DNA of 64,000 nt, taken from the NCBI RefSeq assembly GCF_016919245.1, contig NZ_JAFEJA010000002.1:1118501-1182500 (forward strand). The letters are read 5' to 3'. How positions within the stretch are numbered: the stretch's first letter is position 1; every line of letters begins with the position of its first letter. The notes below the pieces were generated by a model. It was given only the letters and a program-made list of their open reading frames with translations, ran no database searches and had not been told where the DNA came from. This DNA is from Streptomyces zhihengii. Lineage in GTDB: Bacteria; Actinomycetota; Actinomycetes; Streptomycetales; Streptomycetaceae. This document shows positions 1 through 15,156 of the stretch, piece after piece. Made by a program: the position numbers and the translations under genes.

Positions 1-3000
1 ATCGCCGTCGACGGCGTGACCGTCGCCCTCGTCACCCGCCGCGCCGGCGAGCTCTACGGCAGCGGCACCGCGTCGGCCTCCGGCCCCGGCGCGCAGCCCG
101 GCCCCGCCGAGGGCGCGGACGGCGGCACGGGCACCGGCACCGACACCGGCGCCCCCGCCCCCGCCCCCGAGCGGGCGCTCGCCCGGCTCGTGGCGGCCGA
201 ACGGGCCTACCGGGCCTCGCCGCAGCACGCCGCCGACCGGGCGTACTGGCACGAGCGGATGGCCGGCCGCCCCGAACCGGTGCGCCTCCTCGAACGCGGC
301 CCGGGCCTCGTCGCCCGGCGGCTGCGGCGCACCCTGGAGACGACGCCCGGGCAGACCGCGCGGCTGCGGGCGGCGGCGGACTCCTGCGGGGTGCGCGTCT
401 CCCGGCTGCTGGTCGCCGCCGTCGCCGCCTATCTCCACCGGGTGACCGGAGCCCACGACCTCGTCCTCGGCCTGCCCGTCACCACCCGGCGCGACCCGGC
501 GACCGCGGCGGTGCCCGGCATGGTGTCCAACATCGTGCCCCTGCGCCTGGCCGTGCACGGCGGCACGACGGGGGCCGGACTCGCCGCCCAGGTCCAGGAG
601 CGGATCGCCGAGGCGCTCACCCACAGCCGCTACCGCGCCGAGGACCTCGCCAAGGACCTCGGACTCGTCGAGGGCGTGGCCGAACTCGTCGGACCCACCG
701 TCAACATCCTGCCCGGCACCGGCCGGCTGCCGTTCGGCGACCTCGACGGGGACCTGCGCTGCGAGTGGACCGGGCCCGTCAGCGACCTCGCCCTCACCGT
801 CGGCGAGAGCGCGCACGGCACCCTGCGCATCGTCCTCGACGCCGACGCCGCCGTGTGCGACGCGGCGGCCCTCGACCGCCACCGCCGCGCCTTCGGCCTG
901 CTCCTCGACGCCCTCGCCGACCGGCCCGCGCTCCCCGTCGGACGCGTCGACCTGACCACGGAGGAGGAACGGCACCGGCTGCTGGAGACGTTCGGCACCT
1001 CGCCCCGCGAAGTGCCCGAGCGCTCCTGGCCGGACGCCTTCGAGGACCAGGTCCGCCGCTCGCCCGACGCGGTCGCCCTGGTCTGCGAGGACACCGAGCT
1101 GACCTACGCCCACCTGGACGCGGAGGCCAACCGGCTGGCCCGGCTGCTGCGTGCGGAGGGTGTGCGGGACGAGGACGTCGTCGCCGTCGCGCTGCCCCGC
1201 TCGCCCCGGCTGGTGGTGGCGCTGCTCGCCGTGATGAAGGCGGGGGCCGCCTATCTGCCCCTGGACGCCGACCACCCGCGGGACCGGATCGCCCACATGC
1301 TCGCCGACTCCGGGGCGCGGACGGTGCTCACGGACCTCGGCACGGCCGGCGACCTGCCCGAGGCGCCCGGGGTTCGCCGGATCGTGCTCGACGACCCGGC
1401 GACCGGCGCCGCGCTCGCCGCGGGGGACCCCGCCCCGCTCGGCCTCGACGTGCCCCTCGGCCGCGCCGCGTACGTCATCTACACCTCGGGCTCCACCGGC
1501 CGGCCCAAGGGCGTGGTCGTCCCCCACGACGGCGTGGGCAGCCTGATCGCCACGGCCACCGACCGGATCGGTGTGGGGCCGGACAGCCGGATCGTGCAGT
1601 TCGCCTCGGTCGGCTTCGACGTCACCGTCTGGGACCTGATCATGTCGCTGTGCGTCGGCGGCCGGCTCGTCCTCGTGCCCGCCGCGCGGCGCGTCGCCGG
1701 GCCCGCCCTCACCACGTACATCGAGCGCCACCGCGCCACCCACATGATCCTGCCGCCCTCGCTCGTCTCCGCGCTCCCGCCGGAGTGCGAACTGCCCGAG
1801 GGCGCCGTGCTGGTGGTCGGCACCGAGGCCGTGCCGGCCGAACTGGTCGCCCGCTGGGCGGGGCGGCTGCGCATCGTGGTCGCCTACGGGCTCACCGAGG
1901 CGAGCGTCAACTCCACGCTCTGGGCCGCCGAGCCGGACCGCCCCGGCCCCGCGCCCATCGGGCGGCCCGATCCCAACACCCGCTGCCGGGTGCTCGACGC
2001 CGCGCTGCGGCCGGTGCCCGCCGGAGTCGAGGGCGAGCTGTACGTGGCCGGGCGCGGACTGGCGCGCGGCTACCTGGGCCGCCCGGGGCTGACCGCCGAG
2101 CGCTTCGTCGCCGACCCCTACGGGCCGCCCGGCGAGCGGATGTACCGGACGGGCGACCGGGTGCGGTGGGGAGCCGACGGGAACCTGGACTTCCTGGGCC
2201 GGGCCGACGGCCAGATCAAGATCCGCGGCCATCGCATCGAACCGGGCGAGATCGAGAGCGTGTTCATGGCCTGCCCGGGGATTGCCCAGGCGGCCGTGCT
2301 GGTCCGCGAGGACCACCGCGGGATCCGGCGGCTCGTGGCCTACCTCGTCCCGGACGGCGGTGACCGCGCCGGCGAGGCCGTGGCCGAGGCGCGGGGCAGG
2401 GCCGCCCGCGCCCTGCCGGAGGCCATGGTCCCGTCGGCCGTGGTCGCGCTCGACGGCCCGCTGCCGCTCACCCCCAACGGCAAGCTCGACACCCGCGCGC
2501 TGCCCGAGCCCCGCTGGACCGCCCAGGGCGGCTCCGCCGCGCCCACCACCCCGGCCGAGGCGCTGCTCGCCGGACTGTTCGCCGACGTCCTCGGGCTGGA
2601 ATCGGTGGGTGTCCACGACAGCTTCTTCGAGCTGGGCGGCGACAGCATCGTCGCGATCCAGCTCGTCACCAGGGCCCGCGCCGAAGGACTCACCGTCAGC
2701 CCGCGCGACGTCTTCCGCCTCCGCACGGTCGCGGCCCTCGCCGCGCCCGCCGCCGAGCGGCAGTCCGCCCGCGTGCCCGAGGCGTTCGCCCTGGTGGCGA
2801 TGACGGCCGGGGAGCGGGCACGGACCGGGGCAGGGCTCGGGGAACTGTACGACGTCCTCCCCGCCACCCCGCTCCAGGAAGGCTTCTGCTTCCACGCCGC
2901 CGTGGACGAGGGCGGCGCCGACGGCTACACCGTGCAGGACGTCCTCGAACTCTCCGGCGACGTCGACGCGGAGGCGCTGCGTGCCGCCGCGGGCCGGCTG

Positions 3001-15000: not shown

Positions 15001-15156
15001 GGCACCGGACCGGTCTCCTGCGAACTCCACGGCCCGCACGACGCCCCGCGGCTCGCGGCGGAGTTCGTGGCACTGCTGCGGCGCGCCGTGGACGCCCCCG
15101 GCCGACCGCTGTCCGAACTGTCCGTCACCACCACACCGAGGAGCGACGACGCATGA
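1..15156 (+). CDS. Nonribosomal peptide synthetase, 5' truncated by window edge (hydroxamate siderophore-type, four A domains, terminal C domain)
   Basis: The frame is open from base 1, and the first five codons read IAVDG, the tail of a condensation HHxxxDG motif, so the true start lies upstream; the GTG at 16 is not the start. Residues counted from base 1: C1 (partial) to 330; A1 345-835; PCP1 Ser882; C2 955-1370 (HHIVADG at 1083); A2 1395-1890; PCP2 Ser1940; E 1995-2450 (HHLVVDG at 2136); C3 2465-2930; A3 2935-3455; PCP3 Ser3505; C4 3560-4000; A4 4020-4525; PCP4 Ser4569; C5 4635-5050 (HHLAVDE at 4748). There is no thioesterase. Codes read by aligning to GrsA: A1 DVWIVGAVN, A2 DPQDFGVIQ, A3 DMENLGLIN, A4 DVFILGAVN, each followed by the core Lys. 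The A3 code is the known delta-N-hydroxyornithine code (coelichelin module 3). A1 and A4 probably use one shared substrate. The next gene is a coupled mbtH. The product is inferred to be a hydroxamate tetrapeptide. Confidence 0.95.

Follow-up and report, generated by a model that had tools for sequence, protein, structure and literature searches.

Organization of the synthetase and its cluster

The window analyzed here, a 64,000-nucleotide stretch of the Streptomyces zhihengii genome (RefSeq assembly GCF_016919245.1, contig NZ_JAFEJA010000002.1, positions 1,118,501 to 1,182,500 of the forward strand), opens inside the gene of a nonribosomal peptide synthetase (NRPS) that, with high probability, assembles a siderophore of the foroxymithine/salinichelin type, a diketopiperazine with formyl-hydroxamate groups. 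The reading frame has no internal stop and covers the 3′ 97% of the gene, whose likely start lies 435 bases upstream of the window. The complete gene (L018:2066-17656, or G000:C2:1118066-1133656) encodes 5,196 amino acids in a source genome of 9.73 Mb on 7 contigs. By Pfam, the condensation (C), adenylation (A), thiolation (T) and epimerization (E) domains follow the order C-A-T, C-A-T-[E], C-A-T, C-A-T, C, and no thioesterase is present (Table 1). We recognized the E domain of module 2 by its HHLVVDGVS motif and its position directly before the third condensation domain, C3.

We recomputed the A-domain codes from an alignment with fixed offsets. The A3 code is DMENLGLIN, as the first-pass annotation of the bare sequence had read it; an alternative reading, DMWNLGLIN, was rejected since the W at position 239 is an alignment-gap artifact. 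The A1 and A4 codes (DVWIVGAVN and DVFILGAVN) are identical at seven of nine positions, the figure given in that annotation, and agree with its proposal that positions 1 and 4 share one residue, with hydroxyornithine at position 3. Its other two structural claims, a terminal C domain with HHLAVDE in place of a thioesterase and a different second residue, are likewise supported, the latter by an A2 code, not reported there, of DPQDFGVIQ as against the serine code DVWHFSLVD. One glutamine code is DAQDLGVVD. Because the A2 code matches it at five of nine positions, glutamine is our best guess for the A2 substrate, held with less than even confidence, and because module 2 contains an E domain, which the first-pass annotation had not reported, the residue is probably D-configured. 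None of six A-code strings, that of A2 included, was found in the open-licence papers searched.

This pattern lies far beyond chance, as 19 other genomes carry it with much of the gene order conserved. The scan of named genomes with C3 as query gave 20 loci; of 1005 candidates scored in a wider homologue search, used for orientation only, 947 fell at E ≤ 1e-60. The 19 genomes, among them Salinispora pacifica CNR114 (L029), have this order of domains, and their A2 codes fit the form DP[QL]DFG[VL][IV]Q, with exactly DPQDFGVIQ in nine. The count includes L074, L078 and L079, in the last of which the NRPS gene is split across three frames; six further loci repeat contigs already counted, L022 and L035 are incomplete, and L040 and L041 differ. 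At E ≤ 1e-120, a C3 relative occurs in 74 of 392 sampled genomes of the same genus. A third tetrapeptide variant, seen in L219 and L040 (and as a fragment in L218), reads DAWDFGC[IV]Q at A2 and carries an additional E-type domain that follows module 1 rather than module 2. Streptomyces sp. t39 (L022, L136 and L137) has two formyltransferase-hydroxylase pairs, and NRPS fragments lie around two scaffold gaps of 100 N; its NRPS homologue is cut before T2, which may reflect either a misassembly or a second related cluster.

A second type of synthetase, read at 11 of the loci fetched from the same genus (L081-L091), has the serine code DVWHFSLVD at A2, no E domain, DVWI[VI]GAVN at A1, and the same A3 and A4 codes as the present protein. 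The likeness in the other codes and in most of the gene set invites the reading that the present product is foroxymithine itself or its D-Ser form, with A2 accepting serine through an unusual code. We judge this very unlikely, since all 11 loci have the textbook serine-like code and no E domain, whereas the present NRPS combines DPQDFGVIQ with E, and its C2, A2 and C3 share only 50-55% identity with those of L081 and L083.

Directly upstream of the NRPS, an ornithine N-hydroxylase gene (PF13434, E 7.9e-107) ends 0.84 kb before the window, and a formyltransferase gene (PF00551 and PF02911) diverges from it. The first-pass annotation had named an ornithine hydroxylase, on which it staked its case, and an acyl or formyl transferase as genes to be sought upstream, and with both in place it passes its own test; the cluster has exporters, and the ferri-siderophore uptake genes are absent from it. 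The formyltransferase divergently adjoins the hydroxylase in all 15 upstream neighborhoods fetched, the present one counted, and for this reason the acyl group of the hydroxamates is most likely formyl, not acetyl. An erythrochelin-type acetylated product, its acetyl group coming from a distant gene, would find some precedent in L208, which also has an E domain in module 2 and combines it with Ser, and in the title of Lazos 2010, cited in PMC6151668, according to which erythrochelin biosynthesis requires crosstalk between separate clusters; against the 15 formyltransferase neighborhoods, it is most improbable. The label "erythrochelin-type" in the first-pass annotation would accordingly survive for a hydroxyornithine tetrapeptide of the diketopiperazine type, and would fall for the acetyl group and for erythrochelin as the nearest relative.

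Two iron-box-like sites lie between the hydroxylase and formyltransferase genes, at L017:17669 (4 mismatches) and L017:17567 (5 mismatches), counted against an iron-box consensus. Simple shuffles of the present cluster's own 5-kb stretch give an expectation of 0.08 such sites at up to 6 mismatches. Of 12 relatives scanned, 11 (all but G408) have sites with no more than 5 mismatches within the final 6 kb of upstream flank.

The cluster differs from its relatives in uptake genes. All nine relatives with both flanks fetched (G218, G129, G251, G359, G085, G399, G408 and the foroxymithine-type G015 and G166) encode a binding protein between the hydroxylase and the NRPS, and, after the exporters, two permeases and an ATPase; their Pfam identity (PF01497, PF01032, PF00005) was checked in G085. 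The present cluster has none of these genes. In Streptomyces sp. t39, the nearest relative, the FecCD/ATPase block is likewise missing between the exporters and the amidohydrolase, and L036/G320 lacks the binding-protein gene. On the contig, the closest FecCD and PF01497 genes are at C2:1257-1259 kb, about 124 kb past the end of the NRPS, and no locus examined encodes a protein more than 35% identical to the cluster binding protein. These observations would suit a pathway in decay, or a siderophore that its maker no longer recovers. Such a history is nonetheless scarcely probable, as the NRPS, hydroxylase, formyltransferase, exporters and iron-box-like sites all appear intact and a permease/ATPase set of 52-67% identity, the most similar among the loci examined, lies elsewhere in the genome (C1:6.42 Mb). 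The uptake genes are an accessory feature of such clusters and do not define their chemistry.

Downstream, the TrmO_N-domain protein, encoded between MbtH and the exporters, recurs among the neighborhoods compared only in Streptomyces sp. t39 (L022:18171-18641) and probably stands outside the siderophore pathway. Of the 10 clusters compared over 10 kb or more of flank on that side, 7, the present one counted, have the amidohydrolase downstream. The hydroxylase, formyltransferase and TrmO_N protein matched no named NCBIfam family above its cut-off, nor did the exporters or the amidohydrolase among the matches listed.

Table 1. Features of the synthetase and the genes downstream of it, in window coordinates.
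Feature	Position	Strand	Basis
Tetramodular NRPS (3′ 97%)	1..15156	+	Open frame, Pfam
C1, N-terminal starter-like condensation domain	1..984	+	HHIAVDG spans window edge
A1, DVWIVGAVN; proposed substrate N5-formyl-N5-hydroxyornithine	1039..2484	+	Pfam, code
T1	about 2566-2745	+	After A1
C2, HHIVADGWS; opens the block that differs from foroxymithine-type synthetases	2851..4137	+	Pfam, identity
A2, DPQDFGVIQ; glutamine-like by resemblance to a glutamine code	4201..5652	+	Pfam, code
T2	about 5734-5925	+	After A2
E, epimerization domain, HHLVVDGVS	5989..7365	+	Motif, position
C3, proposed hydroxamate-forming condensation domain without second (catalytic) His	7450..8757	+	Pfam, alignment
C3 active-site segment, Leu at second His of HHxxxDG	7855..7884	+	Alignment
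A3, DMENLGLIN; N5-hydroxyornithine (predicted)	8818..10347	+	Pfam, code
T3	about 10426-10623	+	After A3
C4, HHITTDEWS	10672..12021	+	Pfam, motif
A4, DVFILGAVN; proposed substrate N5-formyl-N5-hydroxyornithine	12085..13545	+	Pfam, code
T4	about 13621-13815	+	After A4
C5, terminal condensation domain replacing thioesterase, HHLAVDEWS	13897..15153	+	Pfam, motif
MbtH-like protein	15153..15371	+	PF03621
TrmO_N-domain protein	15486..15956	+	80.2 bits, below NCBIfam TrmO cut-off 93.25
ABC exporter (membrane + ATPase), conserved beside NRPS	16008..17816	-	
Second ABC exporter half, conserved	17875..19542	-	
Amidohydrolase-3 family protein	19790..21364	+	

Condensation domains and the second histidine

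The C3 domain departs from the canonical HHxxxDG motif in that the second histidine is replaced by leucine. The substitution is seen in segments of equal length in a MAFFT alignment of 522 C and E domains plus a reference, and in a phmmer comparison with 8hlk (McyB), where the C3 segment aligned without gaps over NHHHIILDGWS; together these rule out a motif that is simply one residue longer. Our survey of this position covered 40 of the 74 C3-positive genomes, the present genome, 35 further hydroxyornithine loci of the genus and, outside the genus, 26 places in 25 stretches of the 33 among the class-search matches listed. Domains shorter than 300 residues and exact duplicates were removed before counting, which left the 522 distinct domains; "E" here denotes a C-type domain directly followed by another C-type domain, and loci L150-L179 were left out of the motif reading because their flanks are too short. 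A pattern search for the C3 motif within the genus matched 161 of 392 genomes.

The loss is concentrated in C domains that precede a hydroxyornithine module, where the second histidine is absent in 101 of 117 cases and a tryptophan stands directly before DG in 99. It is retained in 182 of 183 other C domains, all 84 E domains and all 79 C domains that follow a hydroxyornithine module (345 of 346 when these are pooled). Of 59 C domains that are terminal or cut off, 34 lack it as well. Many of the domains counted are close relatives, and the counts do not represent independent events. The single exception among the 183, in L149 before a DLYNLSLIW module, is probably a cyclization domain. Coelichelin-type lines (DINYWGGIG, DFWNIGMVH, DMENLGLIN) are among the 101. 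The 16 domains that keep the histidine comprise nine C-terminal modules of the same genus preceded by DTEDLGLVD, L212, the second hydroxyornithine modules of L196, L197 and L226, and the FscI-like L215, L220 and L221. Since L196, L197 and L226 carry a first hydroxyornithine module without the histidine and a second with it, under the same A code and within one protein, the C motif is no mere by-product of the A code. At L200-L207, L209 and L041, the C domain of the hydroxyornithine module reads N-R-Q-V-L-L/V-W-D-G-W, with neither histidine of HHxxxDG, and both are also absent from the C domains of L210, L211 and L222.

To place these losses, we built a quick tree of C and E domains from 142 representatives and a careful one from 52. 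In both, most domains without the histidine fall in one clade (15 rows, support 100/99 in the careful tree), with L222 elsewhere and the placement of L196 and L197 unresolved; on the careful tree parsimony requires two changes of histidine state, and an AU test rejects a single clade for all 18 such rows (p = 0.006). Among rows that precede hydroxyornithine modules, the histidine label is not clustered beyond shuffling in the quick tree (77 of 500 shuffles as low), whereas in the careful tree it is clustered (6 of 500). One loss followed by a regain, within the unresolved part of the tree, may also fit.

The chemistry of the acceptor offers a possible explanation. The hydroxyornithine at position 3 carries its acyl group on N5 in coelichelin, foroxymithine and erythrochelin. 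At neutral pH the nitrogen of a hydroxylamine bears no extra proton and is a strong nucleophile, which means that a catalytic base may not be needed and the histidine may be dispensable; selection for it would then be relaxed. Whether hydroxylamine-N-acylating C domains are a distinct kind that works without the catalytic histidine, lost at least twice before hydroxyornithine modules, is in our estimate evenly balanced. We rejected the stricter idea that the loss marks N5 acylation without exception, as the fuscachelin-like (FscI-like) domains keep the histidine; the loss would therefore be permitted rather than required.

If the proposal holds, the motif H-[LVMFT]-x-x-W-D-G-W would predict an internal hydroxamate bond, a linkage otherwise unreadable from NRPS sequence. 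Genome mining could then distinguish hydroxamates formed through a side chain from ordinary peptide bonds, and the role of the "essential" histidine could be tested directly in natural enzymes. This class of C domains is the more novel part of our result. No title on a hydroxamate-forming C-domain subclass without the histidine was found in the open-licence literature, the accessible parts of PMC12971057 and PMC13251462 included, although a search so limited is weak evidence of novelty only.

The terminal domain, C5, presents a separate case, since in this family the terminal C domains show a His-to-Tyr change of their own. Among 21 readable members (the present NRPS, L018; L022; and the 19 other genomes), 17 have tyrosine at the second histidine and four retain histidine (L018, L022, L037 and L079); among the 11 foroxymithine-type loci, only L087 retains it. 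The HHLAVDE that the first-pass annotation noted is therefore the exception within the family and not a hallmark of it, so the family's C5 probably does not depend on this histidine for diketopiperazine release. That the full motif persists here, when most relatives have lost it, could instead point to a C5 that works with an outside nucleophile and releases a linear peptide or a larger ring. We consider this highly improbable, for relatives of the same architecture, the probable foroxymithine enzyme included, mostly have tyrosine at this position, foroxymithine is a diketopiperazine, and no thioesterase domain was found among the NRPS and the neighbors scanned.

Predicted pathway and other loci of the genome

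From the observed domain order, codes, neighbors and iron-box matches, we predict the substrates, linkages, release, regulation and product as follows. Iron starvation, acting via the iron-box-like sites, would switch on the cluster. The flavin monooxygenase would hydroxylate ornithine at N5, and the formyltransferase would formylate part of the hydroxyornithine pool. A1 would load formyl-hydroxyornithine (fhOrn), on whose α-amine C1 probably places an acyl cap; A2 would load a non-serine residue X, which the E domain turns to the D form; A3 would load free hydroxyornithine (hOrn) and A4 a second fhOrn. C3 would then link D-X, through its carboxyl, to the hydroxylamine at N5 of hOrn, forming the middle hydroxamate and leaving the α-amine free, and C4 would couple hOrn to the fourth residue. 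Attack of the free α-amine on the last thioester would release the diketopiperazine, with C5 serving at least as a scaffold. The predicted product is acyl-fhOrn - D-X - cyclo(hOrn-fhOrn); with glutamine as X and acetyl as the acyl cap, it would be C24H40N8O11, with [M+H]+ at about 617.289.

Several points weigh against this assignment. The product is predicted from genes alone; glutamine is a guess for the residue selected by DPQDFGVIQ; and the genes for a ferri-siderophore binding protein, FecCD permeases and ATPase are absent from the cluster. The starter role of C1 as an N-α-capping domain is one that we infer, as is the identity of L029 with the salinichelin (slc) synthetase of Salinispora, reportedly the subject of Bruns et al. 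2018. What is new at this locus would be an NRPS of the foroxymithine/salinichelin kind with a non-serine and probably D-configured second residue, which makes the cluster a good candidate for a formyl-hydroxamate siderophore one residue away from foroxymithine.

The rest of the window holds genes of other kinds. At 30488-41292 lie genes for a GT4 glycosyltransferase, a 1,390-residue AftD-like arabinofuranosyltransferase (PF11847, E 2.9e-215), two small methyltransferases and an FkbM methyltransferase, adjoined at 29234-30199 by a PorA-family gene (PF11271). Arabinan-type cell-wall genes are more typical of mycobacteria. A 911-residue protein with Cache sensor, GAF, SpoIIE phosphatase and HATPase domains is encoded on the reverse strand at 47144-49879. 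Elsewhere in the genome, L147 and L148 (G000:C1:625000-659999) represent another NRPS locus, with C-T-C-T-C-T runs and no A domain by profile.

Comparison with known siderophore synthetases

The present system has four modules with an initial C1 and a terminal C domain, no thioesterase, near-identical A1 and A4 codes of the fhOrn kind, DMENLGLIN at A3, and hydroxylase and formyltransferase genes in the cluster, the set of features by which we define its type. Less complete likenesses extend to more distant systems. Coelichelin CchH-type lines (for example L181-L191, assigned from three codes only) share the DMENLGLIN module and its C domain without the second histidine, but have three modules, no fourth residue and no terminal C domain. 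A C-A-T-TE protein resembling the fuscachelin synthetase FscI (L221, in a 3.6-Mb genome) has the same hydroxyornithine module, yet its C domain keeps HHIVMDG and it ends in a thioesterase. The erythrochelin synthetase EtcD places hydroxyornithine at position 3 and one residue at positions 1 and 4, and has a terminal C domain and diketopiperazine release, as is predicted here; it differs in its acetylated hydroxamates, an acetyltransferase encoded elsewhere and Ser at position 2, whereas the present cluster has an adjacent formyltransferase and an A2 code that does not read as serine.

The probable foroxymithine synthetase (G015 and L081) is much closer. G015 is probably S. venezuelae, and its NRPS at 7.73 Mb falls inside the coordinates of BGC 29 of S. 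venezuelae NRRL B-65442 (7,704,299-7,757,163), which PMC8788739 lists as most similar to salinichelins, its foroxymithine product having been determined from another strain; PMC9769785 also gives the foroxymithine assignment. The A1, A3 and A4 codes are identical to those of the present NRPS, and the position of the terminal C domain, the MbtH protein, the exporters, the hydroxylase and the formyltransferase are shared. The foroxymithine system differs in its serine code at A2, its lack of an E domain and its possession of uptake genes, so that the present NRPS, with DPQDFGVIQ plus E, is not a foroxymithine synthetase proper. Relative to G015, A1 (80%), A3 (83%), C4 (77%) and A4 (80%) are well conserved, whereas C2 (50%), A2 (55%) and C3 (53%) are not. 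Because of this disparity between the 50-55% of C2, A2 and C3 and the 80-83% of the A1, A3 and A4 domains, the simplest reading is that the five-domain block C2-A2-T2-E-C3 has been exchanged relative to the foroxymithine type, an apparent natural exchange that would be useful for NRPS engineering.

The putative salinichelin locus of Salinispora (L029) resembles the present synthetase in that very block, with identities of 69% for A2, 73% for E and 73% for C3 and an A2 code of DPLDFGVIQ as against DPQDFGVIQ. It also has the same domain order, A3 and A4 codes, order of hydroxylase and formyltransferase, and iron-box-like sites, and differs in its A1 code (DVWALGAVN), in HY rather than HH at C5, and in the presence of the uptake genes absent here. 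In CNR114, the IucA/IucC matches of 148 and 81 bits are below desferrioxamine strength (279-283 bits in the other two genomes), which fits the exchange of desferrioxamine for salinichelin reported in PMC12838356. On these comparisons, the closer relatives of the S. zhihengii system appear to be foroxymithine and, probably, salinichelin, and not erythrochelin.

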